Source: a virus | Virus record (IMG/VR): IMGVR_UViG_3300007760_001418 | Location: 23,821 to 87,820 of that record | Direction: 5' to 3' (one strand) | Length of the DNA: 64,000 nt | Shown here: positions 6,433 through 34,017 of the stretch, piece after piece | Layout of the letters: every line of letters starts with the position of its first letter | How positions within the stretch are numbered: the first letter of the stretch is position 1 | The notes under the pieces: model-generated | What the model saw: the letters and a program-made list of their open reading frames with translations, nothing else | What the model was told of the DNA's origin: nothing | The model's database searches: none | Program-made: the position numbers and the translations under genes

Positions 6433-6477
6433 GATACTGGATTTACAGTACTCTGCTTAATGAGAATAGTTATAAAC

Positions 6478-8966: not shown

Positions 8967-8973
8967 TGACAAC

Positions 8974-8990
8974 GATATTTATTAGTACCC
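8974..8990 (+). promoter_or_regulatory. Conserved AT-rich element before prkA
   Basis: GATATTTATTAGTACCC at 8974-8990 shares GATATTTA-TA with 5344-5359, and TTTAYTAGTACCC with 12666-12679. It is preceded by TGACAAC, which also precedes a related ATTATTTCTTATC at 25357 before the giant adhesin gene. It lies 18 bases before the prkA start and could be a phage-specific promoter box. Confidence 0.4.
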
Positions 8991-9008
8991 AATGTAGGGA
9001 GATTTGCA

Positions 9009-13901: not shown

Positions 13902-14266
13902 GGGGGCGAAACGGTCTCGACGGGGTGGCAAAGGGTGAAAGTGCAAGTAACCAACGGTAACACATGGTTTGATAGTGTTGCAAACTATAATTGCTAACGA
14001 TAACGTTGCATACGAATACGCACTAGCTGCGTAAACGCGGGGTTGCTGATAGACCTTGTTACCCAACATCAGATAAGCGGCTTGGCTCCGCCGAAATAAA
14101 CTAGGTCAAAAATGGTTACCCTATTTGTAATAGGTGGGTTCTGATGCTTAATAGGAATGGTGGTTTTTTGAGATACTTTGTCAGTTTAGAGAAACTGTCT
14201 AAACTTGTGAACGACTTAAATTTGGACCTATTTCGGACGCGGGTTCGACTCCCGCCGCCTCCACCA
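13902..14266 (+). ncRNA. ssrA: tmRNA (one-piece)
   Basis: The 5' end GGGGGCGAAACGGTCTCGAC is the classic tmRNA start. The 3' end has the T arm GCGGG-TTCGACT-CCCGC and the acceptor strand CGCCTCC, then A and an encoded CCA. GGGGGCG (13902-13908) pairs with CGCCTCC (14256-14262) with one G-U. The length of 365 nt is normal for a one-piece tmRNA. The RNA, charged with alanine, enters stalled ribosomes and adds a degradation tag. It lies between two phage genes on the same strand. CCA is encoded here, unlike in the tRNA-Asn of this window. Alphaproteobacteria and some cyanobacteria use two-piece forms, so this gene was not taken from those. Confidence 0.97.
13993..14034 (+). other. tmRNA tag-peptide reading frame
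   Basis: The frame GCT AAC GAT to TAA encodes ANDNVAYEYALAA, which with the tmRNA-borne alanine gives a 14-residue tag. The ANDN start and the YALAA end match bacterial ssrA tags; ALAA is the ClpXP/ClpAP recognition end. The middle VAYEY is longer than in Escherichia coli (ANDENYALAA). The preceding bases ATAATT sit where the resume signal is expected. Confidence 0.85.
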
Positions 14267-14438
14267 TTGGTTGGGTAATATGGGTAGCAGCATAAAGGGA
14301 ATGCTTCCTAAAATAAAAAGGGCAGCATCTTCCCACCATGAACCAAGAAAAGGAAATACAGGGCAAAAAAATATAGTTGAACCTACATATATAGAGGAAT
14401 CCGTTAATCCGGATCATGAAACGATAGAGGAAAAAATT

Positions 14439-15533
14439 ATGAGTACTATTGATAATAAAGATAATGAGCCTGCAGATGATACATACATCAACCCTGCAGA
14501 AGATAGTTGGGACTTTATCGGAGGAATGGACGATGATGTTGCAGCCGATGAGCGTCTTTTACCGGACAACAAAGCACCATCTGCATTAAATTGTGGGTTC
14601 ATAGGTGTTGGTGGAGGCGGAGGAAAGTTAGCTAAAGCTTTTCTTGATCTTGGGTTCACTAAAACTGTTGTTGTTAATACCACGGAGAAAGATCTTCCTG
14701 GTGGGATTGATAAGGAACATGTCGTTATTATCCCCGGAGCAGATGGCGTTGGTAAGGATGTAAGTCTTGGAAAAAAGCTGCTTAAAGAAAACAGTACGCT
14801 TGTCGAAGATGCATGCCGATCCAGGCTGGGATCTGTTGAGTGGCTATTTGTACTAGCCGGCGGAGGTGGTGGTACCGGATCTGCATGTGCTGCACTAAAT
14901 GATTCTCTATCCAGATACCTTAAGTCTGTAGAGTCAAAGGGCAGGGTTGTGTATATCATTACAAAACCTACAGCACAGGAATTACTTAATCCTACAATTG
15001 CAACAAATTATGCAGAAATATCAAAAGACTTAAAGGATACACCTCATATTGTAATTGATAATGAACGCCAATTACAATTGTTACGAGGCAAGGTTGGTAT
15101 GTTGAACATGTTCCCAGCTGCAAACTCAACATTTGCAAAACTCTTCCACCAGGTACTACGCCTCGCAAGTGAAAGTTCTTCTATCTCAGCATTTGATTCG
15201 AATGATTTAGAGAGATGTTTGAGTACAGCTGGAAGGATATTCCTTGGCAGTACTGTTATAAGGGACACAGGAGGACGAGATTTAGGCGCACAGGTCCTTC
15301 AAGGTTGTGTTAAGGGGTCACCATGTGCTGGACCAAAAGGGTCTCCAGAGACCGGTGTGTTACTATTGTTGGTAACGTCTCTCATGGCATCGGATCCGGA
15401 TATCAGTAAGCGTCTAGAGTCAGCAACGGCATATGTCGGAGGGCGTGCAAATACGCTTTTTTCGGGTGTGTACGTTAAAGATTCAATTCCTGGACTCATT
15501 GCACTTACCATGTTCGGTGGTATGAAAGACTAA
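14439..15533 (+). CDS. FtsZ/tubulin-like GTPase
   Basis: The protein has the tubulin/FtsZ GTP-binding layout. GFIGVGGGGGKLAKAF (from about residue 56) is the first loop, VVVNTTEKDL the second strand, and AGGGGGTGSACAALN (about 139-153) the tubulin signature GGGTGSG in slightly altered form. NPTIATNYAEI follows where FtsZ and TubZ have the NxD/N base-contact region. It probably forms filaments in the infected cell, as PhuZ and TubZ do, to place or move phage DNA. I chose ATG 14439 (364 residues) because AGAGGA lies seven bases upstream; the frame is open back to 14280 just after the tmRNA, which would add about 53 basic residues. The acidic N-terminal tail before the core is unusual. It converges with a minus-strand gene and overlaps it by four bases. 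Confidence 0.85.
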   Translation: MSTIDNKDNEPADDTYINPAEDSWDFIGGMDDDVAADERLLPDNKAPSALNCGFIGVGGGGGKLAKAFLDLGFTKTVVVNTTEKDLPGGIDKEHVVIIPGADGVGKDVSLGKKLLKENSTLVEDACRSRLGSVEWLFVLAGGGGGTGSACAALNDSLSRYLKSVESKGRVVYIITKPTAQELLNPTIATNYAEISKDLKDTPHIVIDNERQLQLLRGKVGMLNMFPAANSTFAKLFHQVLRLASESSSISAFDSNDLERCLSTAGRIFLGSTVIRDTGGRDLGAQVLQGCVKGSPCAGPKGSPETGVLLLLVTSLMASDPDISKRLESATAYVGGRANTLFSGVYVKDSIPGLIALTMFGGMKD

Positions 15534-18198: not shown

Positions 18199-21100
18199 AT
18201 GGGTAGCCCAAAAGATTTTCTAGCAAAACAGATTAGAACTACTCAAGTCATGGCCTCTGGCTCATTTGGCAATGAGTACCCAGATCTTCTAATTTATAGA
18301 ACCTGGCCTCATTATGATGGTGCACTTCCTCCACATATTGAAGCTGGTATTACAGGTACCGCTGGAGAACTAAGTATCGGTAAAGATGTTTGGTTTTATG
18401 TTGATGCAGCATCAGGGCCTAATCATCCTATTGGGCAAACCGGTGACAGCGGAACAGTAAGAGAAAATAATTCAGTTGTTCTATTTGCTGGTGATGTGGT
18501 GGTGTCTGGTACCCTGTGGGCTGAAAGACAAGTTCTAGAGGTTACCACCATCGCTTCTGATAAGTTTGAGGGCGACATGATCCTGTCTGGCAATTTATTT
18601 GCCAAGGATCAGTATTCAGGTTCAGGTGCAACTTTTATAGCACCTGGAGCAAATCAGTGGGTTGACTTTCAAAGTCTAGGTGGAACAAGCTTATTTGTCA
18701 TTGACTCTGTTAATGAACGAGTAGGTATCCATACCCCTGACCCATTGTTTGACCTTCACATCGTAGATGATAGAGAGGGGAATGCAAGGTTTGCAATCAC
18801 CCAATATGCTGATGATAGTCCAGGAGACGGGCCTGACATAATGCTTCAAAGATCTAGGGGTGATCTTTCTGCTGGTGCATCTGGTGTCGTCGATGGTGAT
18901 AGGTTGGGCTCAATATACTTCCAAGGTGCAGCTGGGCCCGCAGGGATATTGGGGAATGATCAGATTGCGGCAGCAGTCTCGGCTGTGGTTCAAGGTAACC
19001 CAACAATAGATGATGGTGGTGTACCAGCTGCTATAGGTTGGCGAACTGGTGATGGAACGGAAACAACACTTAAATGGCGCCTGGCAAGTTCTGCCGATGG
19101 CCGGATTGGCATCGGCGGCCATAATGCAACGAAAGATGGTGATGCACAACTCCATATTATATGGTCATCAGCCACCGGTGCGGGTGTTACCAGTGCCTTT
19201 GACCCGGGCGCGACCAGCATGTTGGTCGGTGATGGGCCGCTAAAGATAGAAGGCCTTGAGCTTGACACCACAGCTACCAAGAACCTTGTTATAAGCGATG
19301 ATGGTGTGGTCAAATATGGTTATGCAACTATTGGCCCTCCATGTGAGACAACATTATGTGATGGCGATCCTGATAACACTTATGCTGATGGGCTATTCAT
19401 GGACTGGACGGAGCTAACCCCTCTTGGTTGTGCCATCGATCGAATGAATGAAGTATTAGGGTCTATGGCACCCCAGCCTGCACCATTATGTAATTCACTT
19501 GATGAAGTTACAACAACAGTCGGTAATCTAGTTAGTTCTGATTTTAGGCCGGCTACGTTATCTGAGTTAACTCATCCGGAATGGTTAGGGGGTGGGCAAA
19601 CTGCACATGGTACTGTAAATGCTATTTCTGAATTTGTAGGACCAGTAGGAATGTTTCCTGGACCCATTATACAGAATGGCTATTATTCTGCTAATGCCGC
19701 GTCAGCTACGTATCCAGATCCAGAAGATCCTCGAGGTGCTACGTCACCTACTGAGCATGAAAGAGATCATCGGTTGGGTGTATTTTATGGACATGCGACA
19801 AACCTGGATGAACGGCCAACATTTAAGTGCATAATGAATTGGAATGATGATCAAGATCCTGCTAGCGGGGCTGCTATCGGTGCCAATTATCCAACAGGCG
19901 CTTTCGGGAGGGGTGACCAGGGTACCTTATCACTATGGGTTAATGGCACGATACAAGCGGAGTTGGTACTAGACGGTGCAACGGAGGGCGCAACGTCATC
20001 ATTAGGGGCAAATGGTGACCTTATATCTGTTGGCACTTTAGAGCCGGCACATTTTGATAATGGCGAAGAGCTTTGTACATATTTTCATAGAGAATCAGGT
20101 GAGGTACATATAGGTGGTACGTCAATGAGGCTCGGGTGGAACTGGGCCAGAATACAACATCATGGAACCGATATGGTCGATGAAGGAAATGGTATTTTCA
20201 CAAACTTCATTACATGGATCCTAGATGATCATGCTAATGAACCACAAATTAATCCCCAATCTACCCCGGCCGTAACAGAGAGTTCATACACATGGTTGTC
20301 TGGGGTGAAATACATAAAGACTGGAAATGTTGCGTATTCATACACTATCGATGGTGCATATGAAAACTTTTACTGGCCTACCAATGCTTTGGCAGGAAGT
20401 TATGCGGTTCAGTGGCATGATGAATCGCCAAATGGTGCAGCATTAACTCTACCGACACCAAAAGATTTGCCTGCAGCCGGCAGTTACACTGATACTGTTC
20501 TAAGTACCGCTATTCAAGATAATGCTGGTACCGCAAACTTATTGGTACCAACATGTAATCTTGTTAATGGCCGTTGGGGAGATGAAATAGACTTGAGAAT
20601 TACAGTTCAACACCCATTTGATAATGCAGATATCGGGCCCGATGCTGCTTGGGCCACAACTGCTAGTTGGAATAAGTGTTTCAAAGAAGAAATTGACAGT
20701 GGGTGGAATGATACATTCCTCATATATGATAGTGAATGGGATCATGGTACAGGGTATGCTGCCGAACCTACATGCGAAAGCACTACTGTAGAACTATTCC
20801 GGACTGAATATTGGAGACTCCAGGATAATGATAGTAATGGCTCTGGGACACATATGAATGATTATGATACCCAGAACGACGTAACTTCAGCTGTGGGTAC
20901 TGGTATTCCTGCCAATGCATGGAATTCTCAGATAGCTTTAAGTCCGGTTACCACCGGTCATAAAGGACTTCTTTGTTGCAAAGGTAGGCTTTCATCTCCG
21001 TCAAATACAGATCACGTAGCTGTGACCGATGGAAGGTTTGGCGATGTTAACCACCCAGCTGGAAATATAGATTATGATGGGGAAAATCACACTAATCATG

Positions 21101-21573
21101 TAAGATGGTTTTATCGAGCATTTCAAAATCCCCCTAGTGGCGGGTTTGAAGCTAGTTTCTTAATAAATATAGAGACCAATGATGGTGATTCTACAGATAT
21201 AGTTCCTCGTAATGATGAAGGTAGCAACTACCCTGCTGTCAATGCTGTAACAACAGGTGCCGATGTAGATAAAATGCTGGTCGAAATAAAACTACCTGAT
21301 GGTGGGAATGATACAACAGGGTGGATGGACTGTGCTACACAATTTCAACCCGGGCAATTTAATGATGGTGATGGATGCTTAGGGCCGGCGTATACCTCTC
21401 CTGCTAGTTGTACAGATTCACATCGTATATGTAATACTTCACCCGGTGAGATTAGAATTTTTCTTGACACTAGAAAAGTAGCTCCAGGGGAATGGATAGT
21501 CGTTCGGTTGTGTACCAGCGAAGGTTGGGTAGGGTCTATCAATAAATTAGAAGTTGACTGGGGTGGGTACTAA
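18199..21573 (+). CDS. Large tail-fibre protein
   Basis: This 1124-residue, Gly/Asn/Asp-rich protein reads as a trimeric fibre. NERVGIHTPDPLFDLHIVDD (about residues 173-192) matches the RVGIGTxxPxxxLHI element found before fibre shaft modules. GRIGIGGHN and KNLVISDDGVVKYG are further shaft-like repeats. The C-terminal half holds several beta-rich blocks with paired cysteines (TCNLVNGRWGDEIDL, NKCFKEEIDSG, CTDSHRICN) and probably forms receptor-binding domains. There is no signal peptide, as expected for a phage virion part. It is followed 21 bp later by a second fibre gene of similar style. No chaperone-type S74 end is visible. Confidence 0.75.
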   Translation: MGSPKDFLAKQIRTTQVMASGSFGNEYPDLLIYRTWPHYDGALPPHIEAGITGTAGELSIGKDVWFYVDAASGPNHPIGQTGDSGTVRENNSVVLFAGDVVVSGTLWAERQVLEVTTIASDKFEGDMILSGNLFAKDQYSGSGATFIAPGANQWVDFQSLGGTSLFVIDSVNERVGIHTPDPLFDLHIVDDREGNARFAITQYADDSPGDGPDIMLQRSRGDLSAGASGVVDGDRLGSIYFQGAAGPAGILGNDQIAAAVSAVVQGNPTIDDGGVPAAIGWRTGDGTETTLKWRLASSADGRIGIGGHNATKDGDAQLHIIWSSATGAGVTSAFDPGATSMLVGDGPLKIEGLELDTTATKNLVISDDGVVKYGYATIGPPCETTLCDGDPDNTYADGLFMDWTELTPLGCAIDRMNEVLGSMAPQPAPLCNSLDEVTTTVGNLVSSDFRPATLSELTHPEWLGGGQTAHGTVNAISEFVGPVGMFPGPIIQNGYYSANAASATYPDPEDPRGATSPTEHERDHRLGVFYGHATNLDERPTFKCIMNWNDDQDPASGAAIGANYPTGAFGRGDQGTLSLWVNGTIQAELVLDGATEGATSSLGANGDLISVGTLEPAHFDNGEELCTYFHRESGEVHIGGTSMRLGWNWARIQHHGTDMVDEGNGIFTNFITWILDDHANEPQINPQSTPAVTESSYTWLSGVKYIKTGNVAYSYTIDGAYENFYWPTNALAGSYAVQWHDESPNGAALTLPTPKDLPAAGSYTDTVLSTAIQDNAGTANLLVPTCNLVNGRWGDEIDLRITVQHPFDNADIGPDAAWATTASWNKCFKEEIDSGWNDTFLIYDSEWDHGTGYAAEPTCESTTVELFRTEYWRLQDNDSNGSGTHMNDYDTQNDVTSAVGTGIPANAWNSQIALSPVTTGHKGLLCCKGRLSSPSNTDHVAVTDGRFGDVNHPAGNIDYDGENHTNHVRWFYRAFQNPPSGGFEASFLINIETNDGDSTDIVPRNDEGSNYPAVNAVTTGADVDKMLVEIKLPDGGNDTTGWMDCATQFQPGQFNDGDGCLGPAYTSPASCTDSHRICNTSPGEIRIFLDTRKVAPGEWIVVRLCTSEGWVGSINKLEVDWGGY

Positions 21574-21594: not shown

Positions 21595-24500
21595 ATGGCT
21601 AATATGCTAAATGAAACAAGGCTTCAAATTGTATTGAAAAAGCTTGTAGGACGAGCTACAACTGTAGCTAAGTCTGATGAGGGTTACCTTAATGAAAAGT
21701 ACCCTACAAACATTACAACATCCGCAACAACTAGTTTTGCAGAGGCACTTCCAAACGTTCCACTTCGGCCCGGGCCGACGAATGGTACCGCTGGTATTCA
21801 AGGAACCCCTGGTACTATTACTAATAGTGCTGGTGCAGAATGTAATGATGGCGGTCCCGGAATTATGTATACAGATGGAGTTGTAGAATGTGTACAGCTT
21901 GATTTTATCCCAATTGATACCAGTGTATACCCAGGCCCGGATGGCTCTAATTTACAGTATCATGCATATAAAGCCAGGTTACCAAGTGATTACGATACCG
22001 ATAGTAATAATCCAAGAGCTGGTACAACAGGGTGGAATGGTGAAGACTATCTTTATGAAACACAGGGCCGGGTTCAGTGTATACCACCTATATTTGGATA
22101 TGATGATCCGACCGGCGGAGTTTATGCACCTGGCGACGGCACAGACAAAAGAATATACCAAATAAACGTTGAGCATGCGAGCGGGCCTATAGAAAATGCC
22201 GACCTTCGTAACTGGTATTTTGATTATTATAATGGTATCTTTTTTCAAGAACGATCTTATGAAGATGACGCCGGTAATGTATTACCTGAGCCTACAACCG
22301 GTGAGGTGTTACTTTACATCGGCGACTTTGTAGATGAAGCACTCCAGGTTGCCATGGAAATGCCGGCAGCTGACTCAGACTGGTGGGAAGCCGGCACGTC
22401 AGGACCATTCGATACTCATCTAATTACAACATCATCAGTAGCTATCGGCACAGGTCACACAGGCATTACTGCATACGATACTGGTAAGGATACATTCTTC
22501 TTTGTCGGTGGCACAGCTGGTAGTCGAGCAGAATGGCTAGCTGGTACGGGCGGTGCTCCTGGTGTTGCCCACTTCGGCGGGGACCTGGCACTCAGTGGAA
22601 ACCTTGCAGCAGGAAGTACTGCCACAGTCTCACCTAATGTATTGGTTGCACCCTTCGCGGAAGATGAGCCACAGTTTGCACACATAATGACTGGGTCATA
22701 CATCGATATCGGAAACTTTATCGAGGGTGGTGTTAGTGGTGGGTATGCATGCCCTGCTGATCCCACATTCGGTGGAGTAATAGCCTCGACGGAACTCTGC
22801 TATTATATTTTTGATAATGTTGAAGTTCCAGATGAAATTAATGGTGGGTATAGATCATTACAGACTGGAGACGGAATCGGTGCATGGTTAATTGATTCAA
22901 CCGGCGCGCAGCTATATTGCGGATATCACGACGGAACAAGCACACCTTTTGGAAGCCTGCCGACAGAGACAATTGTCGTTCACGGCTATGATTCCAATAC
23001 TCCGGGGACTAATGAATATTTTGTGTCTGGAGAAGTTCCTCAGTTTACGATTTATGACAACGTCGGTGGGAAGTGTTGGCCGGCTGAAGTTTGTGGAGCT
23101 CCTTGTGGTTTAACAGCTGCCGGTGGGTTCGCCGCCAATACGAGTAATTCACATACTACCTTACGCGGCACCGGTGTGGGCTATGATGAAGCGGGCTTTG
23201 TAGCCATCCGGCAAATCTGTCAACTAGAAAACCAACTCAGGTTCTCAGATAATAGTGTTGGTATTTTTACTGGTGGAGAAGAACCAGGCCTGTTGAACGG
23301 TGCCTTTGTCAGAGTCATTGAAGCTAGGGATGGTTCTGCAGGTGATATAGAGCTGTTAGCTGGAAAAAATAAGATCAATACGCCCCCTGACCACCTCGGA
23401 GGTACTAGCACAAATAGGGCTGGTAATATCAACATGCTTTCTGGTGATGGAGTCTGGGAGGGTGGTGATATCAATATCATTGCCGGCGGTTCAGGCGGGA
23501 CATGGACACTAGAGGGATCAGAAACTCCGGCTAGAGAGGGTGGCCCTTTCGGTGGCGATATCAGTATATTTGCAGGAGTAGGTGCATATGCTGGTAATAT
23601 TGCCATTGCTGGTGGGAAGTGTAATGGTTACTCATCAAGCAATCCAAATTATTTTGGTGGAGAAGTTACACAAAAGAGATCTGGTGATGTATACATCGAT
23701 GGTGGGAATACTGAAAGTGGTGAAAGCAAATTCCGAGCCAGTGTATTAATCAATACAGTCAAGGATCCGGGGGAAGGACCTAACTTTGGCCCGAACGGCG
23801 AGGGATGGTGCAATAGTAGGTTTGCAGAGTGGACAACAAATCAAATAGATGTTGCTGGAAATGATGTAACATTCGTCTGTAACCAAAAAGCAACTAGGCT
23901 GGCAGCGATGATGGCACCGAGTACCTCTCTTAATAAAATCTTAACAGCATGTGATTATCAAAATAATGTAGCACCTGGGGGTAGTTGGTCAGATGAAGCA
24001 TTAGAGGGCCCATTTCGAATAAGGTACTCATATGCCGGGGCTGGTTCACAATACCCAACACCAACCGGATGGTCTTTACCTCCTGCCAACGATTTATGTT
24101 GGCTTATTGAATGGGGAATGATTACAGTTACTACAACGGTACCAGCCGGAGAGCAATGGGAACTAAGAATAACGAAATTTGATCAAGGGTATGGTGGTGT
24201 TACTGGAGACACAACAATCAAAGGGTTGGCAGATGCACTCTTTGATATAGCACAACTAAATAACCCAGGCCTACCGAATCCCAAATGGAGAATATCTGTC
24301 TATGGGTCGCCGACGACCCAGTATGTACCGCCCCCTCTAGTAATTCCAATTTCTTTAACTTTCGATCCCAGCATAGGGAGTAACAACACAGCAGGTACAT
24401 CATTAGATTCTGGGGAGAATGGGTTTAGAGTAAGTAGTTTTCCAGATCCTGCTGATGAACTATATACGGATTCTAGGCGAGGCCTGGGTGTAGGACAACC

Positions 24501-25347
24501 TAACCCAGCCGCTACAATCCATATAACTGAAAATGGTAAATGGAAAGACCACCGGCCACAGTGCCCTACTGAATTCAGTTCCCCTATTGCAGTTGATGGT
24601 CTACAGGAACTGGACTATGGTGCACTAATGGTCACCCTCCCAGATATTTGGGGAGAATTCGGGCTTAATCAGGAAATGACTGATCTCGTTTATAAGCTTG
24701 ATCTAGCTACTAGTATTGCAATTATTGGGCTGGCTGGACAATTACAGGCTAGGCTTGGTAACGACGACGGCGATGATGTACCACCTAAAAAGTCACCGAT
24801 ACCAGTATATACAGACATAGTAAAAATTGATGGTACCCTGGTTAATTCTGGATTTATTACTAATGCAAGATATGAATTGGATACACAATTTAGGCCTGAA
24901 GAGCCACCAGTATGGCCGCCGCTTTGTCCTGATGGCAGCCAGCCACCATGTGATGAACCACATATAGAGTTTGACCCTTCCATACCAGGAATATTTGGGC
25001 AAGAAGAATTTGATAATACAGTTATGGTTGATACAACTGACATTCTTATTAAGGCCCAAGCCGATGCAAATGGCAAGGTGCTAGAATTGATACTGCCTTC
25101 TGGTATTAATTCCGTAGATGCTACAGGGGCACTGGTAAAAGAAATGTCTTATCCTGGTCTGGGAAGAGTAATACAGATAAAGGATTTCGGTGGTGAGGCT
25201 GGAACCAAGGATGGATTTGATATAAAGATTATCCCACAAGACGGTGAGTTAATCGATGGCCTTGTAGAAACAGTGCTAAACCAACCCTACTCAAGCATAA
25301 CGCTAATAGGAAATGGCCGAGATGGTTGGTCAGTGGGGGGCAGATAA
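21595..25347 (+). CDS. Large tail-fibre/adhesin protein
   Basis: This 1250-residue protein has an N-terminal attachment-like helix (NETRLQIVLKKLVGRATTVA), a Gly-rich repeat block in the middle (GDIELLAGKN, GNINMLSGDG, GDINIIAGGSGG, GDISIFAGVG, GNIAIAGG, GDVYIDGG) that should form a regular beta structure of short turns, and a shaft motif GLGVGQPNPAATIHITENG near residue 965. Around residues 396-505 it contains a module (YRSLQTGDGIGAW, SGEVPQFTIYD, CWPAEVCGAPC) that recurs twice in the gene at 60885. The C-terminal end is again beta-rich. It probably binds the host surface. Confidence 0.75.
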   Translation: MANMLNETRLQIVLKKLVGRATTVAKSDEGYLNEKYPTNITTSATTSFAEALPNVPLRPGPTNGTAGIQGTPGTITNSAGAECNDGGPGIMYTDGVVECVQLDFIPIDTSVYPGPDGSNLQYHAYKARLPSDYDTDSNNPRAGTTGWNGEDYLYETQGRVQCIPPIFGYDDPTGGVYAPGDGTDKRIYQINVEHASGPIENADLRNWYFDYYNGIFFQERSYEDDAGNVLPEPTTGEVLLYIGDFVDEALQVAMEMPAADSDWWEAGTSGPFDTHLITTSSVAIGTGHTGITAYDTGKDTFFFVGGTAGSRAEWLAGTGGAPGVAHFGGDLALSGNLAAGSTATVSPNVLVAPFAEDEPQFAHIMTGSYIDIGNFIEGGVSGGYACPADPTFGGVIASTELCYYIFDNVEVPDEINGGYRSLQTGDGIGAWLIDSTGAQLYCGYHDGTSTPFGSLPTETIVVHGYDSNTPGTNEYFVSGEVPQFTIYDNVGGKCWPAEVCGAPCGLTAAGGFAANTSNSHTTLRGTGVGYDEAGFVAIRQICQLENQLRFSDNSVGIFTGGEEPGLLNGAFVRVIEARDGSAGDIELLAGKNKINTPPDHLGGTSTNRAGNINMLSGDGVWEGGDINIIAGGSGGTWTLEGSETPAREGGPFGGDISIFAGVGAYAGNIAIAGGKCNGYSSSNPNYFGGEVTQKRSGDVYIDGGNTESGESKFRASVLINTVKDPGEGPNFGPNGEGWCNSRFAEWTTNQIDVAGNDVTFVCNQKATRLAAMMAPSTSLNKILTACDYQNNVAPGGSWSDEALEGPFRIRYSYAGAGSQYPTPTGWSLPPANDLCWLIEWGMITVTTTVPAGEQWELRITKFDQGYGGVTGDTTIKGLADALFDIAQLNNPGLPNPKWRISVYGSPTTQYVPPPLVIPISLTFDPSIGSNNTAGTSLDSGENGFRVSSFPDPADELYTDSRRGLGVGQPNPAATIHITENGKWKDHRPQCPTEFSSPIAVDGLQELDYGALMVTLPDIWGEFGLNQEMTDLVYKLDLATSIAIIGLAGQLQARLGNDDGDDVPPKKSPIPVYTDIVKIDGTLVNSGFITNARYELDTQFRPEEPPVWPPLCPDGSQPPCDEPHIEFDPSIPGIFGQEEFDNTVMVDTTDILIKAQADANGKVLELILPSGINSVDATGALVKEMSYPGLGRVIQIKDFGGEAGTKDGFDIKIIPQDGELIDGLVETVLNQPYSSITLIGNGRDGWSVGGR
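22780..23109 (+). repeat. Adhesin module shared with the gene at 60885
   Basis: This stretch encodes about 110 residues with the order C-Y-Y-I-F, PDEINGGYRS, GDGIGAW, GEVPQFTIYD and CWPAEVCGAPC. The gene at 60885 has the same order at 63350-63705 and, cut by the edge, from 63747. It resembles GDxIGAF...PxFxIYD modules that I recall from secreted proteins of marine Bacteroidetes; that resemblance is from memory. Confidence 0.55.
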
Positions 25348-25380: not shown

Positions 25381-28300
25381 ATGGCGTCTTATAGATGGTA
25401 TGACGGGCAACGTATATACGATACGTTAGATGACTTGAAAGAAATAAAGACCCAGGAGGCTCCTCCATTTAAGGGTACTATTGCTATTGTTACAAGTCCT
25501 GGATATAATTGTCCCGTTTCGAGTAACTGGGAATTATTTGATCGTGGATTTCAAAGCAAAAGAATAGAGGAAGCCCAGGGTGGTGGAGCCAGCGTTGAAG
25601 CTAATCTATGTGATCAAATTAAAGCATGGGATTATGAAAAAATCCTACAAGAAATTTTTAGACAAGAGGAAACTAGCTCTCTAGGGTTTGGGGGATATGA
25701 GGAATCAGATCCGGGCGCCGGCGGAAAAACCAGGTCCATGGCCATGGAAAATTGGGCTGCCCAACCATCTGAGAAACAAATAAGGGCTGTATATTCAAAG
25801 CACTTGGAATATATGGATGGCGACAGAACATGGTCACCTACACTATTCGATATAAAATATATTATTGCACCTATGATGATGCGGTCACTTGGCAAGGAAG
25901 ATGAAGATCTAGATTTAAGCGATCTCTATAAAAAGCTAATTGAGAGCCTGCTAAAGTCGACATACTCAGAGGTAGGTGAAAGATATGATTGCCTAAATGC
26001 CGCTCTAGACAGTGGCAGGTTCACAGCAATGCAAAGCTTTAGGGATGGTTTTATTACGAAGTCCGTTGAAGTTCAGGCCGGGGGATGGGTTGATTATGCC
26101 ATGTACACCCAAGGTGCACAACAAACTTCAGAGAATGGATATTATGGTAATGCTGAGTCACAAGCTTTCCAGGCTGAAGCAACATATGGCCAGGTGGCCT
26201 CACAAACTTCCGAGGATGATTGGAAAAACCAGGCCCAGCAAGCACAACAGGATTCTGCACCTCAAACTAAAATTGAAGAGCAACAGCTAGGTCCAATCAT
26301 AAGTTGCCTATCGGCTGGTGGTGAAGTTTTACTGCCTTGGGTTATGGATACGGAGGGGAAGGGTCAACCTATCGGATGGGTTGTTAATCCAGAAATTCCT
26401 GGTGCTATGGGAATTGATAGACCATTGGGGGAAGGCACTGTCCACCCCATGGGTCGGGAAACCACCTACATTTTTACTAGCCGTATTAATGTTGATCCGA
26501 TGTTATTTCCAATCCCGGATGAGCTTAACCGATACCTAAAGACAGAAGAAAAGGTACAAGGACCGGTTGCAATAAGCTATGCATATATCCAAGGGCAATG
26601 GGCACTGTATTCTGACCGTGATCCTAAAAGTAAGGGATTAGTACTAGATAAGCCAGAAGAAAACCAACAAGATGATCTAACATTAGAGTATTCTGTTGAT
26701 GGCAATGACTGGATCGAAGTTATTAATCATCCCGCTGATGATAATGAGCAGCCCGCGGTTCGCATGCGGAGAGGTGAAAATCCCTGGCGTGTACATGGGG
26801 TGGTCATTGACTCAGACGAAGAATTCTATATAAGGTTTGTACAAAAAAGCTTTAATAGAGGAAGCCACCGGGTATCTGATGAGTGGTCAATTGATGATGT
26901 TATTGTATGCGGCCTCGGCGGTGATGGTGAGTCCGCGGAAGTAAAGCAGGGTGAACCAAGATCAGGTGAAGGAACAAAGGAAGATTGTCTAGAGTATTGT
27001 GGACCAGGTACCGGTATTGGTGTCTATGTTTGGATTCCAACCATGCGACTCGAGGATGCCTGGATAGAGTTGCAGGGTGGCTCATGTCATGATGTATCAT
27101 TTAGTGAAGAACAAGAAGATGCAATCGGAATTGGTAGATTTGTCGTTCGACCGAATGATAGACAGGGTGGCACTACAAATAATCCTGAGAGTAATGGCGG
27201 GCCGGGAGACACCGGCCGGTGGGTAAGTGTAATCCCATCAGCATTATGGAAAAGACTATTAGGTCCAGAGCGACTCGAAACACATGTAATGTCACACCAA
27301 GATTGTCTTGCTGTATGTGATGGACCCCCTATTTCCAATAGTGCGGGTGGTGAGTATTATGGTGAGAAAGCGTTTGATACATTTGATGGATTTGATACAC
27401 TTTTACTTAAGCCTACCCCTCTCCGTCATGATGGATATGGGATATATGGTGGTGTCTGGTTACCAAAATTAGGAAATGAGGGCGATGAAGTAGAGATTCA
27501 TGTGACCGCAGCAATAAATGCTTGGGGGGCAGGGGTTTATGAATTTGAAACCGACACAACACCGGCTGTTGTTATTATGGTTCTTGACAGTTATGATTCC
27601 AACGGTGATGGGATCCCAGACGGTGATGGGTGGAATGGAACCGTATTACGGTTAAAGAATGTTGAGACAAATGAATTAGTAGATGGTGAGATTACTCTGC
27701 TGGATGGTGCCACCGGCGAAATTATGTTTACGTCTTTACAACCGGAGACTAAGTATCGGCTTTGGTGCCAAGAAGAAGGGAACTGGTCCTATGAAATAGG
27801 GATGGAAATTAAGGATCAAGATTCTGGAAGTGTATTACTCAATATTCCATTTGGTAGTATTACTGAAGCTGATCTGGCACCCGGTCATGATGTTAATAAT
27901 TCTGGTGGTAATGGTGGTGGCAATGACGGGCCACCTGAAATAACTGGGGAAGGACTCACTTTAAGAGTTTATTGTGGCACTGGTATTGAAGCCTATAGTA
28001 ACACAGAGGTAATGATCCAGAACTCAGAATTACTGGGTGAAGTTGAAGCCGATATGACAGGGATTGTAATCCCTGCAGGGCAGACTAAAGAACTGGGATT
28101 GAATCTTAAACTTAAAGCAATTCCTTGGGATTACCCAGAAGGCATGCCACCTGAAGCTATTGAGCAGTGTGACAGTCTTTGGAAGCAAATAGAAGATGCA
28201 AAGGCACAATGTCAGGCGACCGAGGCTTTATTAGCGGAGTTATACGTTACATATCATGAAAACGACTGTAATGGTGAGGGTGACCCAGAACTTTGTGCAC

Positions 28301-31300
28301 AAATACAAGGACAGATTACAGAAGCCCAAGCTGAGCTAGAGGGTCTAAATGAGCATATATCACAATTAACATATGGGTATAGCAATAGTTGCCAACAGGA
28401 TGGTGGATGGACAGCAAGAGAATCAACAATTACAGGTTCAAGAGCACTAAGGGGTATAATACCGGTTAGCCCTTACCCTACGAGGCTAGGGCCGGCAAAT
28501 GATAAGTGGCATTGTTTTAGAAATAGCCAGCACTTAAGTAATTGGTTTTCTTCAGCACATGTGACGAATCCAGGCGGGGATGGTTGGGCTTGTGATAAGT
28601 CAATCTTTGTGACATGGCAATGGGGCACCAGCGGGGACAATATGGGCTGGCAACCCAATCCAGATGCAGGGTATAATATTGCCTTGACCCAATTTAACAT
28701 GAATGTCCAGGTACCGGTATGTAGTGAACAATTACTGGATAGTGGTAAAGAATGCAATCCAATGGGTTGTACAGATCAAGATGCATGTAACTATAATGAG
28801 AATGCAACAATAGATGATGGCAGTTGCATGTTTGAAGATTGTTTCGGGGAATGCGGTGGAGATGCTGTTGACTTAGGTTGCGGTTGCGGAGAGCCTGCTC
28901 CCACGTATGTCTGCGATAATTCATCTGAGCTAGTTTGTGAAGAATGTGATTGTCCACCGCCCACAGCTTTTAATCATTCTGCCGGTATGAATGAAGATGA
29001 ATCATACACGGCTACAATTACAGGTAGCGGGCATAATGCAGGCTGGACGGTCAGCAGTTACCCTACAAGTGGAAGCGTTACACTCGATTCGGATACTGGC
29101 GAGTTCACCTACGTACCTAACGAGGAGTTCTCTGGAAATGATAGCTTCGTCGCTAAGATTACAGACAGTTGTGGAAGAACTGCATATGCAGATGTTAACA
29201 TTATTGTTACCCCAGTAAATGATCCGCCTATTGCAATTATCGGACATGACATGGAAGATGGTGATGGTGGTGGTGGCAGCAATAATATCACTATAACAAA
29301 TATAGAGGCAGTGAACTTAGAACTGAATGCGTCGGCCTCATATGATGTCGATAATTCTCCAGGAGATCTAACATATCGTTGGACGTCAGCAATAGCACCT
29401 GGTAGTTCATGTACTAGTGATGATACTTGCCAAGAAGGGTATTATTGTGATATGGGGACATGTCAACCCATAGTACTTTCGGAAGGAATTACATTTAAGC
29501 CATGGAGCTCCGTCGACGCGTCCCAAATTGGACCGGGATCCTATACATACTTCTTAGTTGCTTCTGACCCCCAGACAGATTCTGCAGCAGATAGCATTAC
29601 AATTATCGTACTACCAAATTTGGGTTGTACAGAGACGTCGGCATGCAACTATAATGAGAATGCCAATGTTGATGACGGCACCTGCGAGTTCGCTGGTGAA
29701 TGCTATGATTGCTTTGGGAATTGCATATGCGAAGAAGATTGCTTTGGAGAATGTGGCGGGGCCGCTGTAGAAGATGATTGCGGCGAGTGCAACGGAGATA
29801 ATAGCACATGTTCCGGCTGTACAGACGATACAGCATGTAATTATGACCCTAGTGCAACCATTGATGATGGCAGTTGCCAATATGCAGATTGGGAATGCTG
29901 GGACGGAAGCTTCGTTTGTGAAGAAACATTATGTCCACCCGCGGTATTTTGTTTAGGCGCAGAGTGGGATGCAGAACAAGGGCAAGAAGGTGCACTTGGC
30001 CTAACATTCAAATGGCCAGAAGAGCCTGAAATCGTCGGATTCCAGATCGGACTTGACGCCGGCGCCGGCTTTAACTTAAGAAATGTATTTGGTGGAGCAG
30101 CAGGAGAAGCTGGTTTCAATATATCTCACTCTGGTGGCGGAACTATAGTTGCATTTTCAAATGCAGGGTCATCAATCCGTGGAAGTGATTGTAACGGCAC
30201 ACCTCTAATCTATCTTGATTTTATAGGGGAACTAGGGCCAAACTTTGTTAATAATGTATATGTACAATTCCTTGTAAGTGACCCACTGTTTATTGTCAAT
30301 TACCAGGATAATACAAACGGTGGTGTTGTACAACTCGACCTTGGGTGTTGTGAGAATGATCGGGCAACGAATGACCCACGAAAATCTGGTTGTGATAATG
30401 TTAAAGGATCTGGAACAACATACGATGACTGCGGCATATGCCGAGACCTTAAAGATCCGGATTGGAATTCCACGTGCCTCGACTGTAATGACGTCCCGGG
30501 TGGTACCGCAGAAATAGATGATTGCGGCGACTGTTGGGAAAATGGGCGCGAGAATGCTAATTGGAATAGTAAAGATGAAGGCTGTGGTTGTGGCAACGGT
30601 GCGAAGATAGCTAGCGGTAAGAATAAAGGTTGTTGTCCGGATGAAGCTGTCAACAATGTTGGTTGTGGTTGCGATGAGTCCGGTAATGCAATCAGTAAGA
30701 AGCAAAACGGTTGTTGCCCAGGTGTGGCCAAGGGAGATTGTGATTGTGATGAATCTGGCCAGAGGGTCGACGTCGATGCAGACAATTGTTGCCCAGATGG
30801 AAAAGGACCGGATGGTGAAGAAAAAGACTGCGCCGATGAATGTGGTGGCCCAAAGAAATCAGATGAATGTAATGACTGCGAAGATCCCGCTAGCAATGAT
30901 TGGGTATCGGTATCCACAAACTTTAGCTTAGGTGCACCATGTGATTGTGATCCGGTAGTAAATTGGGATGAATGTGAAAACTGCCCAAGCGATGACAACT
31001 ATCAAGCACCAAAGGCTTATCCTGCAATTAACCCAACTGATGGGCCTTGTTGCCCGGGTGATCCAGGATATGGAAATCTTAAGCCTCAAAAACAAGAAAA
31101 CATTGGTAAACCATGTAACTGTGCCGGCGACGTATGGGACTGCAGGGGCATATGTGGCGGTGGTGCTATCGATGAAGGGTGTGGATGTGGCAATGGTCCG
31201 GTAAATGCTGAAACAGGATGTTGTGACAAGGGTCCAAGGAAGAATAAAGGGCCGAATGGCGAAGCCCCCGATTGTGCAGGTAAATGTGGCGGCTCAGCTA

Positions 31301-31869
31301 CTGAAGATGATTGCAGTAATTGTAGTGACATCAGTGAAGGTGACGATGGTTGGAATGATTGTTGGGACTGTGAAGGTACAGCACATGGCACCGCTACTGA
31401 CGAAGGTTGTGGTTGCGGCAACGGGCCGGTAAATGCTGAAACAGGCTGTTGCGATAAAGGACCGAATAAGGGCAAAGGCCCGAACGGTGAGAAGGCAGAC
31501 TGTACAGGCAAATGTGGCGGCACCACAGAGCCGGATTGCAATGATGATTGTGGTGGATCAGCCTTTATCGACGATTGTGACGAATGTGTTGGCGGGAAAA
31601 CGGGCAAATTAGCAAATTGGAAACATGGTGACTGTGGTACATGTGACGGTGCCAACGTCGATCAAGATGGCTGCTGCCCGAATGGCAAGACACCGGAAGG
31701 CGACCCATGTCCAGATCCAGACCTAGTCACTAGTGACCCATGTGATAACGTCGTTTGTATGCATCCAAAATATTGTGTTGACGGTCAATGTGTACAAGAT
31801 GGCGGTGATGATGGCCATGGCCTCCCCGGGGATACCGATGGGTGGAGTGGCGTTGAAAGCTTGCCCTAG
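25381..31869 (+). CDS. Giant cysteine-rich multidomain adhesin
   Basis: This 2162-residue protein is the largest in the window. From the N-terminus: a helical/Gln-rich region (QAQQAQQD), a beta domain with LTLEYSVDGNDWIEV...EWSIDDVIVCG (about 431-512) like the reelin/MAM type, a Cys-Gly block, a possible coiled coil (SLWKQIEDAKAQCQATEALL, about 930-985), three GCTDxxACNYNxxAxxDDGxC modules (from about 1130, 1416 and 1480), and a cadherin-like domain (about 1201-1285) ending PVNDPPIAIIG. A Cys-knot C-SDDTCQEGYYCDMGTC follows. The last 500 residues hold dozens of cysteines in GCGCGNG, GCCPxG and CGGS/T repeats and an EGF-like NVVCMHPKYCVDGQC. Such folds need disulfides, which form outside the cytoplasm, so it probably matures after lysis or on release. 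It is likely the main receptor-binding fibre. Confidence 0.75.
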   Translation: MASYRWYDGQRIYDTLDDLKEIKTQEAPPFKGTIAIVTSPGYNCPVSSNWELFDRGFQSKRIEEAQGGGASVEANLCDQIKAWDYEKILQEIFRQEETSSLGFGGYEESDPGAGGKTRSMAMENWAAQPSEKQIRAVYSKHLEYMDGDRTWSPTLFDIKYIIAPMMMRSLGKEDEDLDLSDLYKKLIESLLKSTYSEVGERYDCLNAALDSGRFTAMQSFRDGFITKSVEVQAGGWVDYAMYTQGAQQTSENGYYGNAESQAFQAEATYGQVASQTSEDDWKNQAQQAQQDSAPQTKIEEQQLGPIISCLSAGGEVLLPWVMDTEGKGQPIGWVVNPEIPGAMGIDRPLGEGTVHPMGRETTYIFTSRINVDPMLFPIPDELNRYLKTEEKVQGPVAISYAYIQGQWALYSDRDPKSKGLVLDKPEENQQDDLTLEYSVDGNDWIEVINHPADDNEQPAVRMRRGENPWRVHGVVIDSDEEFYIRFVQKSFNRGSHRVSDEWSIDDVIVCGLGGDGESAEVKQGEPRSGEGTKEDCLEYCGPGTGIGVYVWIPTMRLEDAWIELQGGSCHDVSFSEEQEDAIGIGRFVVRPNDRQGGTTNNPESNGGPGDTGRWVSVIPSALWKRLLGPERLETHVMSHQDCLAVCDGPPISNSAGGEYYGEKAFDTFDGFDTLLLKPTPLRHDGYGIYGGVWLPKLGNEGDEVEIHVTAAINAWGAGVYEFETDTTPAVVIMVLDSYDSNGDGIPDGDGWNGTVLRLKNVETNELVDGEITLLDGATGEIMFTSLQPETKYRLWCQEEGNWSYEIGMEIKDQDSGSVLLNIPFGSITEADLAPGHDVNNSGGNGGGNDGPPEITGEGLTLRVYCGTGIEAYSNTEVMIQNSELLGEVEADMTGIVIPAGQTKELGLNLKLKAIPWDYPEGMPPEAIEQCDSLWKQIEDAKAQCQATEALLAELYVTYHENDCNGEGDPELCAQIQGQITEAQAELEGLNEHISQLTYGYSNSCQQDGGWTARESTITGSRALRGIIPVSPYPTRLGPANDKWHCFRNSQHLSNWFSSAHVTNPGGDGWACDKSIFVTWQWGTSGDNMGWQPNPDAGYNIALTQFNMNVQVPVCSEQLLDSGKECNPMGCTDQDACNYNENATIDDGSCMFEDCFGECGGDAVDLGCGCGEPAPTYVCDNSSELVCEECDCPPPTAFNHSAGMNEDESYTATITGSGHNAGWTVSSYPTSGSVTLDSDTGEFTYVPNEEFSGNDSFVAKITDSCGRTAYADVNIIVTPVNDPPIAIIGHDMEDGDGGGGSNNITITNIEAVNLELNASASYDVDNSPGDLTYRWTSAIAPGSSCTSDDTCQEGYYCDMGTCQPIVLSEGITFKPWSSVDASQIGPGSYTYFLVASDPQTDSAADSITIIVLPNLGCTETSACNYNENANVDDGTCEFAGECYDCFGNCICEEDCFGECGGAAVEDDCGECNGDNSTCSGCTDDTACNYDPSATIDDGSCQYADWECWDGSFVCEETLCPPAVFCLGAEWDAEQGQEGALGLTFKWPEEPEIVGFQIGLDAGAGFNLRNVFGGAAGEAGFNISHSGGGTIVAFSNAGSSIRGSDCNGTPLIYLDFIGELGPNFVNNVYVQFLVSDPLFIVNYQDNTNGGVVQLDLGCCENDRATNDPRKSGCDNVKGSGTTYDDCGICRDLKDPDWNSTCLDCNDVPGGTAEIDDCGDCWENGRENANWNSKDEGCGCGNGAKIASGKNKGCCPDEAVNNVGCGCDESGNAISKKQNGCCPGVAKGDCDCDESGQRVDVDADNCCPDGKGPDGEEKDCADECGGPKKSDECNDCEDPASNDWVSVSTNFSLGAPCDCDPVVNWDECENCPSDDNYQAPKAYPAINPTDGPCCPGDPGYGNLKPQKQENIGKPCNCAGDVWDCRGICGGGAIDEGCGCGNGPVNAETGCCDKGPRKNKGPNGEAPDCAGKCGGSATEDDCSNCSDISEGDDGWNDCWDCEGTAHGTATDEGCGCGNGPVNAETGCCDKGPNKGKGPNGEKADCTGKCGGTTEPDCNDDCGGSAFIDDCDECVGGKTGKLANWKHGDCGTCDGANVDQDGCCPNGKTPEGDPCPDPDLVTSDPCDNVVCMHPKYCVDGQCVQDGGDDGHGLPGDTDGWSGVESLP
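28768..29877 (+). repeat. Three CTDxxACNYN Ca/Cys modules
   Basis: Copies lie at 28768-28827, 29626-29685 and 29818-29877. Each encodes 20 residues of the form CTDxxACNYxxxAxxDDGxC with identical spacing. The first and third both end IDDGSC, while the second reads VDDGTC. Codon choices differ between copies, so they are old duplications. The motif is common in surface proteins of marine bacteria, where the Asp-rich loop is thought to bind calcium. Confidence 0.75.
31171..31520 (+). repeat. Duplicated 76-residue cysteine-rich unit
   Basis: The segments 31171-31292 and 31399-31520 encode nearly the same protein, DEGCGCGNGPVNAETGCCDK followed by GP...KGPNGE...DC-GKCGG. The spacing of 228 bp gives a 76-residue period. 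The DNA differs mostly at third codon positions, so the protein is under selection. Confidence 0.75.
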
Positions 31870-32088: not shown

Positions 32089-34017
32089 GTGCTGAAGAGT
32101 CCATTCGACCCACCCGTATCTAATAATATCAGCATCCCAGATGATGCCGAAGTAGTTTTTGTTTCAGATTTCTTTGTTGAGGATCTAGTCGGAGGTGCTG
32201 AACTAACCTCAGAAGCTTTGATTGAAGCTAGTCCTTTTAAGGTTTTCAAATTACATAGTAAAGATGTATCCCTTCAGGTCCTGGAACAGGGCATTGGTCT
32301 CCATTGGGTATTCGGAAACTATTCTGGAGTTAATCCTGAGATGATCCCTTCTATTGTAGGCAACATGGAATATTCAGTGCTGGAGTACGATTACAAGTAT
32401 TGTAAATACCGGTCACCAGAGAAACACAAGAGCATTGAGATGAAAGAATGCGACTGCCATGAAGGTATCCAAGGCAAAATGATATCGGCCTTCATGTATG
32501 GTGCAAAGAGCCTCTGGTGGATGTCAGAAAGACAACAGCAAAACTATTTTGATAAGTTTCCTTTTCTTTCAGAACGTCCTAACGTAGTACTCAGCTCAGT
32601 CTTTAATGATGACTTTTTTGCTATGCTCAAAGTTATGAAGGAACAAAATCAAGACGTTGAGCGCAGCGGCTGGCTAGTCTTAGGTAGCACATCCTGGATA
32701 AAGGGAACAGACGCAGCAGTACGGTACTGTGAGGATAACAATCTAGATCATAAGGTATTATTGCAGCTGCCATATGCGGAGGTGCTTGATGAAATGTCAA
32801 GGGCAGAAGGATTTGTATATCTTCCTCAGGGCGGAGACACCTGTCCCCGTATGGTTATTGAAGCTAAACTGTTAGGTTGTAAGCTACATATCAATGATAA
32901 TGTTGAACATGCAAATGAGTTGTGGTTTGATACTGATGATACCTTTGACACCATGGCATATCTTTATGCTGCAAGGAAAAGATTCTGGGATGGTATCACT
33001 CATGCAATGGAGTTTGTCCCAACTCTAAGCGGCTATACAACAACATTAGATTGTAATAAGAACGGGTACCCATGGAAGGCTTCTATTAAATCTATGCTTG
33101 GATTCTGTAATGAGGTTGTTGTCGTCGACGGCGGCTCTACAGACGGTACATGGAAAGAATTGCAGGCATGGGCCCACGAAGAAGACAGACTAAACGTATA
33201 TCAAGTTGAAAGGGATTGGGGCCATCCGAGGTTTGCTGTTTTTGATGGTCAACAAAAAGCAGAGGCAAGATCCAGATGCACTGGTGAGTTCTGTTGGCAA
33301 CAGGATGCAGATGAAGTAGTCCATGAGAATGACTATGAAAAAATCCCTCGCCTTCTTAAGACGTTTCCAGTTGATGCAGATGTCGTCTCTTTACCTGTCG
33401 TTGAATACTGGGGCAGTGCTAAGAAAGCACGGGTTGATGTAAATCCATGGAAGTGGCGAATATCAAGAAATGCCCCGCATATTACCCATGGTATTCCAGC
33501 ACCATTTCGTATGACTGATGACGATGGTAACCTATATGCTTCTCCAGGTACAGACGGTTGTGATTACATCCATAATGAGACATACCAAGTGCTTCCTCAT
33601 GCTAGCTTTTATACATCAGACGTACATAATGTTAGGCTACATGCCGCGGCCGGCTCTCCTGGTGCACTAGAGCATTATACTGAGTGGTATAAGCGGGTTG
33701 TTGAAATGCTTCCTGGTGTATATCATTATTCCTGGTTTGATCTAGAGAGAAAGATTAAGACATATAGGGATTACTGGTCACAGCATTGGCAGAGTTTATA
33801 CAACATTGAACAAGAAGATACGGCTGAGAATAATATGTTCTTTGAACGTCCCTGGTCAGAGGTTACTGACAATGATATTACTGAACTAGCAACAAAATTA
33901 GAAGATAAAATGGGGGGCTGGGTATTTCATGTTCCGATTAATTTTGACAATCCGACTCCACACATTACATTAGAAACGTCACAACCGGCGGTTATGGTGG
34001 AAGATGACTCAGAATGA
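32089..34017 (+). CDS. Two-domain glycosyltransferase (GT4-like plus GT2)
   Basis: The N-terminal half looks like a GT-B enzyme: VVFVSDFFVEDLVGGAELTSEAL is the typical first loop, WLVLGSTSWIKGTDAA and FVYLPQGGDTCPRMVIEAKLLGC (about 248-270) match the donor-binding glycogen synthase-like region. The C-terminal half is GT2 (GT-A): VVVVDGGSTDGTWKEL, then WQQDADEVV as the DxD metal site. Such fusions add two sugars in turn. The start is GTG 32089 with AGGAG upstream. It opens the sugar island and overlaps the next GT2 gene by 14 bp. At 642 residues it is full length for both domains. The acceptor is unknown. Confidence 0.8.
   Translation: MLKSPFDPPVSNNISIPDDAEVVFVSDFFVEDLVGGAELTSEALIEASPFKVFKLHSKDVSLQVLEQGIGLHWVFGNYSGVNPEMIPSIVGNMEYSVLEYDYKYCKYRSPEKHKSIEMKECDCHEGIQGKMISAFMYGAKSLWWMSERQQQNYFDKFPFLSERPNVVLSSVFNDDFFAMLKVMKEQNQDVERSGWLVLGSTSWIKGTDAAVRYCEDNNLDHKVLLQLPYAEVLDEMSRAEGFVYLPQGGDTCPRMVIEAKLLGCKLHINDNVEHANELWFDTDDTFDTMAYLYAARKRFWDGITHAMEFVPTLSGYTTTLDCNKNGYPWKASIKSMLGFCNEVVVVDGGSTDGTWKELQAWAHEEDRLNVYQVERDWGHPRFAVFDGQQKAEARSRCTGEFCWQQDADEVVHENDYEKIPRLLKTFPVDADVVSLPVVEYWGSAKKARVDVNPWKWRISRNAPHITHGIPAPFRMTDDDGNLYASPGTDGCDYIHNETYQVLPHASFYTSDVHNVRLHAAAGSPGALEHYTEWYKRVVEMLPGVYHYSWFDLERKIKTYRDYWSQHWQSLYNIEQEDTAENNMFFERPWSEVTDNDITELATKLEDKMGGWVFHVPINFDNPTPHITLETSQPAVMVEDDSE

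Follow-up and report, generated by a model that had tools for sequence, protein, structure and literature searches.

Gene, reading frame and cysteine content

The stretch of DNA analysed here (the window, 64,000 bases) corresponds to positions 23821-87820 of the IMG/VR virus record IMGVR_UViG_3300007760_001418 (87820 bases in total), and contains the gene of P0001, a cysteine-rich protein of 2162 amino acids that is treated here as a candidate phage adhesin. The coordinates of the gene and its stop-free translation agreed exactly with those of the original prediction, an earlier annotation of this DNA, and a ribosome-binding site (GGAG) is located 10 bases 5' of the ATG. The gene and the features recognized within it, all on the plus strand, are as follows.

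25381..31869, plus strand: complete P0001 gene, a single open frame of 2162 codons without a stop
25381..28740, plus strand: residues 1-1120, with 1.8% cysteine and no detectable relative found
27586..27639, plus strand: residues 736-753, the stretch DSYDSNGDGIPDGDGWNG, which resembles a D...DGWNG motif
28768..28827, plus strand: residues 1130-1149, first CTDxxACNYN module (sequence pattern)
28957..29202, plus strand: residues 1193-1274, Big_9 bacterial Ig/cadherin-like domain (Pfam, 35.5 bits, cut-off 23.6)
29626..29685, plus strand: residues 1416-1435, second CTDxxACNYN module (sequence pattern)
29818..29934, plus strand: residues 1480-1518, third CTDxxACNYN module joined to the unit CWDGSFVCEETLC (sequence pattern)
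29935..30318, plus strand: residues 1519-1646, predicted cohesin-fold domain (iterated profile and predicted structure)
30346..31770, plus strand: residues 1656-2130, region of 62 cysteines with GCGCGNG, GCCPxG and DCxGxCxG repeats
31165..31521, plus strand: two 129-nucleotide repeat copies (31165-31293 and 31393-31521), 76% identical by nucleotide comparison

P0001 contains 121 cysteines (5.6%), while 27.6 would be expected from the rate of 1.28% in the 48 other open reading frames (ORFs) of the window. The cysteine richness, which had been pointed out earlier, is clustered in three stretches at 13-16%, namely residues 1121-1200 (15.0%), 1411-1515 (16.2%) and 1656-2130 (13.1%), compared to 1.8% in residues 1-1120. 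The codon usage of the gene is that of the phage (mean log frequency of -1.045, against -0.95 to -1.19 in other ORFs), and thus the frame is not an artefact; it also suggests that the frame is coding and has long been resident in the phage. The GC content at third codon positions (GC3) is likewise continuous with the phage. These results bear on the possibility that a bacterial contig was joined into a phage contig during assembly. Half of the gene is indeed bacterium-like (see below), but such an artefact is extremely improbable and is already contradicted by the continuity of codon usage and GC3, by an open frame that crosses all segments, and by the two flanks, where conserved phage genes are arranged as expected.

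Modules and repeats of the C-terminal half

The CTDxxACNYN modules of the original prediction were confirmed at three sites, starting at residues 1130, 1416 and 1480, as were its GCGCGNG/GCCPxG repeats, with GCGCGNG occurring at residues 1734, 1933 and 2009. The cadherin-like domain that it had proposed was retained in the form of the bacterial Ig/cadherin-like Big_9, the sole domain accepted by Pfam on P0001, to which other profile searches gave weaker support. The CTDxxACNYN module was not assigned to any named family by the libraries searched, and a literature search with the motif found no relevant paper. The module is very common, being present in at least 454 viral and at least 566 genome stretches, and the best 80 stretches of each scan were retained. 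According to their titles, the 77 retained genome loci belong nearly all to Bacteroidota and Neomarinimicrobiota, with Buchananbacteria and Bacteriovoracaceae as the clear exceptions. Residues 1101-2162 found matches in all 14 genomes searched of the Fibrobacteres-Chlorobi-Bacteroidetes (FCB) group, with 11-93 matches each. Of all the frames searched, the module joined to a CxDGxxxCxxxxC unit was observed only in P0001, bacterium TMED198 and one Neomarinimicrobiota genome (G055); a cohesin-like domain comes immediately after this joined element in P0001 and G055.

Alignment of residues 1656-2130 with the repeats of an FCB-group bacterium (L232) showed 30% over 433 columns, with 31 of 51 cysteines kept compared to 33% of the other residues, and alignment with the repeats of a viral protein (L154) showed 56% over 41 amino acids, with 5 of 5 and 16 of 29 cysteines kept; the cysteine retention in both comparisons is biased, as the aligner favours cysteine matches. 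The two 129-nucleotide copies kept 7 of 8 cysteines in an in-frame comparison of 55 codons, with 31 of 54 differences at the third codon position and 19 synonymous versus 15 non-synonymous codons. A crude test on ORFs with a closed 5' end indicated a signal peptide in 51 of 60 bacterial module ORFs versus 7 of 77 viral ones, and P0001 was negative by this test (hydrophobicity of 0.89, threshold of 1.9).

Residues 1125-2130 are composed of modules of FCB-group secreted proteins and appear to be most like those of Neomarinimicrobiota. The earlier suggestion that the modules are shared with other marine microbes thus held, since surface or secreted proteins of the FCB group carry them. The multi-module secreted proteins of FCB/Neomarinimicrobiota bacteria, such as a 3070-amino-acid ORF of TMED198 (L164/L328), share with P0001 the CTDxxACNYN modules, the module joined to the CxDGxxxC unit, the cohesin-like domains and the DCxGxCxG repeats. 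In contrast to P0001, most of them begin with a signal peptide, and the phage-specific 1120 residues are missing from them. Among viral proteins, L154 (2352 amino acids, L154:3159-10217) resembles P0001 in its cysteine content (6.2%), CTDxxACNYN modules and DCxGxCxG repeats, but has a subtilisin-type protease-like start, recognized by eye, and no cohesin domain found. Another giant phage protein, L088, also carries CTDxxACNYN modules without a signal peptide; it matches phrog_14478, a 'virion structural protein' family, at 3e-120, and its matches in the Cellulophaga phages phi38:1 and phi40:1 are annotated as structural. Unlike P0001, it has only 1.6% cysteine and belongs to another protein family, and no cohesin-like domain was detected by iterated profile in the 80 viral module loci.

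The cohesin-like domain

A cohesin-like domain at residues 1519-1646 and the FCB/Neomarinimicrobiota affinity of the C-terminal half had both been missed in the original prediction. In the loci searched, L164 (bacterium TMED198) and L229 (Neomarinimicrobiota) were the only two with a match to residues 1515-1660. Iterated cohesin profiles recovered 64 domains in 17 loci, which partly overlap on the same contigs (e.g., L164/L328 and L219/L254). The domain was present in 5 of the 77 retained genome loci (L164, L212, L219, L220, and L229), all titled as TMED198 or Neomarinimicrobiota. The final profile, which was built without P0001, scored P0001 at 35.6 bits, and a TMED198 member of the same profile family (L164:2940-3407) overlaps a match to Pfam Cohesin (PF00963) of 28.9 bits, with a cut-off of 24.1. 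These profile relationships indicate that the P0001 domain is homologous to recognized cohesins.

The structure predicted from a 16-row alignment reached a predicted local distance difference test (pLDDT) score of about 80-94 in the core. Cohesins occupied ranks 1-6 in the Foldseek search (best E value of 2.2e-4), and the VIA comparison gave a Z score of 9.6 for a cohesin of C. perfringens, with a root-mean-square deviation of 3.2 over 117 residues. YcnI, which is not a cohesin, reached a Z score of 9.1 on the same model, within 1 of the top, and therefore the fold alone is not exclusive to cohesins. The template modelling (TM) scores were low (0.3-0.4 when the first 43 residues, which are disordered, are included). 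The model nevertheless predicts the cohesin jelly-roll fold for residues 1519-1646. The domain shares with the PF00963 cohesins this predicted fold and a profile family that overlaps Pfam Cohesin, while it differs from them in that the Pfam model gives no match on P0001 at E ≤ 1 and that dockerin binding is only putative; because of the missing match, it is called cohesin-like and is not filed as a member of PF00963. A search for other viral cohesins with one sequence pattern, which P0001 itself would not match, found none, and a bacterial copy of the cohesin had no match in INPHARED.

Dockerins and the possible docking of P0001

According to one report on dockerin and cohesin proteins of anaerobic methanotrophic (ANME) archaea, cohesins are known for dockerin binding, these domains are not confined to cellulosomes, and function cannot be read from their mere presence (PMC9012536). 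In seven genomes of the cohesin lineage (G051-G057), picked because they carry modules, Dockerin_1 matches numbered 35-112 per genome, compared to 0-3 in six Bacteroidota genomes. These seven are small (1.1-3.1 Mb) Neomarinimicrobiota/FCB genomes, six of them with cohesin matches. Dockerins were found in 59 of 100 genomes of the Neomarinimicrobiota phylum, mostly in low numbers, which indicates that only a subset shows the expansion. The dockerin ORFs examined from the cohesin lineage (L341-L344) have the dockerin pair at the C-terminus. The dockerins and cohesins of G051-G057 form a possible non-cellulosomal docking system; a search for papers mentioning both 'dockerin' and 'Marinimicrobia' found none.

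The cohesin-like domain of P0001 might bind the dockerins that a Neomarinimicrobiota-like host carries on its secreted or surface proteins, with the host's docking system acting as the receptor or with the phage coating itself in dockerin-tagged host proteins. This is unlikely. It would agree with the position of cohesins at the top of both the Foldseek and VIA lists, with the score of P0001 against a profile built without it, with the family member also recognized by Pfam Cohesin, and with the abundance and C-terminal location of dockerins in the cohesin lineage. On the other hand, P0001 has no Pfam Cohesin match, the non-cohesin YcnI is tied with the top structural match, the seven genomes were chosen for carrying modules while dockerins are mostly few across the phylum, and the cohesin-like domains of those bacteria may be plain spacers. 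Quite unlikely, too, is the fuller proposal that the phage attaches by a cohesin-dockerin bond, its cohesin being copied from scaffold-like proteins of Neomarinimicrobiota and dockerin-tagged exported proteins of the host being the receptors. Such a bond was not found as a phage entry route in the literature searched (listings and abstract starts). If true, it would name the host phylum for an uncultured phage clade, and adhesin modules might then serve to infer the hosts of uncultured phages from sequence.

The N-terminal half

The N-terminal half of P0001 had no match in INPHARED. A reelin/MAM-like domain and EGF-like pieces, both assigned to the protein in the original prediction, were not upheld: Reelin_subrepeat-B scored 11.9 bits, under the Pfam cut-off of 27, and no MAM or EGF family was found on P0001 by Pfam at E ≤ 1. 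The domain search that had been proposed as a check thus passed Big_9 and failed reelin, MAM and EGF. Residues 400-515 retrieved nothing below an E value of 0.5 from PDB sequences, and a model of residues 308-527 from a single sequence had a pLDDT of 33.5. On the evidence obtained here, P0001 is not animal-like. The D...DGWNG motif, searched as a loose regular expression, was found in 8 of 90 bacterial and 1 of 83 viral module ORFs, and the likeness of DSYDSNGDGIPDGDGWNG to it is a lead only.

Genomic context and the variable slot

The phage carries a gp6-like baseplate wedge, a transfer-messenger RNA (tmRNA), a tRNA-Asn and a DUF444-SpoVR-PrkA trio. It is a member of a marine T4-like clade, and P0001 lies in the hypervariable slot of that clade, which extends from PhoH to a conserved glycosyltransferase. 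Variable host-recognition proteins are classically encoded in slots of this type. Relatives were gathered via PrkA (80 of 141 stretches retained, 65-100% identity). The other genes of the slot considered here are:

18199..21573, plus strand: upstream fibre-like gene, with only the first ~140-200 residues conserved in relatives
21595..25347, plus strand: second large slot gene (1250 amino acids), without relatives in the records examined
32089..34017, plus strand: conserved glycosyltransferase gene closing the slot, present in all 11 relatives whose slot is visible in full

In nine of these 11 relatives, the slot contained one or two large fibre-like proteins, while two (L006 and L073) had none. 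The first large slot protein of the relatives begins with a DFxAxQIR-like sequence, and the 18199 gene of the window has that start. P0001 occupies the same genomic slot as these tail-fibre proteins, but it differs from those of the relatives in lacking their shared N-terminus and in its cysteine content, which is 0.18% in the slot proteins of relatives (30 in 17028 residues; 14 ORFs from nine records). No relative of P0001 was found in 50 related records (the 50 largest of the 80), or among 146 ORFs around the slots of 12 relatives, and exact peptide patterns, a low-sensitivity search, retrieved no whole-protein relative from IMG/VR. The sole INPHARED match comprised 58 residues of the Big_9 region, in Phage C48C1. 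The 1250-amino-acid neighbour had no match in the slots of the 11 relatives and none in INPHARED.

The slot is also relevant to whether P0001 is host cargo, that is, a picked-up bacterial secreted protein made for the infected cell and acting outside the virion. The secreted-protein architecture of its C-terminal half, of Neomarinimicrobiota type, is what such cargo would show, but this origin is improbable given the fibre-slot location, the negative signal peptide test, the phage-like codon usage, and an N-terminal half unlike any bacterial protein found.

As separate observations, the absence of a fibre gene from the slots of L006 and L073 suggests that slot adhesin genes are dispensable or located elsewhere, and the DUF444-SpoVR-PrkA trio is complete (window 6460-10937) and was found in each of the 13 phage records compared, among them the identical L002.

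P0001 as a probable virion-borne adhesin

P0001 is probably an adhesin that was assembled from surface modules of the host group and that the virion of a marine T4-like phage carries as an accessory fibre or spike. Its candidacy is based on its location in a classical host-recognition slot, downstream of a fibre gene whose N-terminus is conserved, and on its large, modular and lineage-specific character. It is further supported by the membership of the module-bearing L088 in a virion structural family, by the contrast in signal peptides between bacterial and viral module ORFs, with P0001 negative, by the cohesin fold suggested by both iterated profile and model, and by the wide occurrence of the modules in viral and genome stretches. 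Several observations weigh against this adhesin reading. The structural families of PHROGs were matched by only two of eight module-bearing viral ORFs, one of them weakly; the N-terminus of P0001 shares no anchor with the fibres of the clade, as the DFxAxQIR start is absent; the codon usage is the phage's, and hence there appears to be no sign of recent transfer; and the tmRNA tag of the phage matches neither Neomarinimicrobiota nor Bacteroidia (see below). The earlier description of an adhesin built of modules therefore stood as regards the phage gene, its modular build, the fibre/adhesin slot and the shared modules, and fell as regards animal modules. P0001 is an unusual, lineage-specific adhesin candidate and a variant of modular phage adhesins.

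As an adhesin, P0001 would be anchored to the particle by the phage-specific, proximal residues 1-1120, which presumably carry the virion-attachment end, while residues 1125-2130 would extend away from it as a string of small modules derived from FCB secreted proteins, and these distal modules would attach to the surface of the host or to its polymers. Alternatively, P0001 could bind marine polysaccharide, mucus or aggregates instead of a specific receptor and so raise encounter rates. This is conceivable although doubtful: the modules are small and repetitive and recur in many other viral contigs, and two more phage genes have Laminin_G_3 lectin-like domains (56118-59831 and 60885-63998), but Pfam detected no carbohydrate-binding family on P0001.

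The oddity of dense cysteines in a reducing cytoplasm, raised in the earlier annotation, still stands as an oxidation problem. Lacking a signal peptide, the adhesin would be synthesized in the cytoplasm, and its disulfides, if any, would have to wait for lysis and contact with oxygenated water; alternatively, the cysteines might bind metal. P0001 shows that the variable adhesin slot of a marine phage clade can accommodate a cysteine-dense protein with the secreted-protein architecture of an uncultured bacterial phylum and without an export signal. Two parts of P0001 lend themselves to testing: the predicted cohesin-fold domain, for which there are many candidate dockerins, and the cysteine-dense repeat, the redox state of which is measurable in a virion.

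Host affinity and additional observations

The module affinity of P0001 points to Neomarinimicrobiota. Weak module matches in structural proteins of Synechococcus phages (E values of 0.05-0.6) suggest that the modules are also present in phages of other hosts. The tmRNA (window 13902-14266) carries the tag ANDNVAYEYALAA; the tmRNAs of relatives carry differing AND/ANN tags, and all tags of the phage clade begin with AND or ANN (18 loci). Tags beginning with AND were absent from the 29 read in 30 Neomarinimicrobiota loci and from 15 in Bacteroidia. A phage tmRNA need not copy that of its host. Near-full-length homologues of the baseplate gene were found in 2 of 245 genomes of the Neomarinimicrobiota phylum, with three more partial, and in none of 395 Bacteroidota genomes, of which three had partial matches. 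The two co-binned phage contigs with the near-full-length homologues were rejected as host evidence, as beyond the baseplate gene they showed only weak matches; they represent distant phages and prove nothing.

A homologue of FtsZ/tubulin-family GTPases (window 14271-15533) adjoins the tmRNA. It matched FtsZ structures with a best E value of 1.2e-9 and Pfam Tubulin with 29.4 bits, just below the cut-off of 33, and showed 63-70% identity in five relatives besides the identical L002. A phosphomannomutase of eukaryotic type (PF03332, 124.8 bits) is located at window 440-1264, and a collagen-repeat protein (PF01391) with a cysteine-rich end lies beyond the window in the same phage record (L082:3639-4583).

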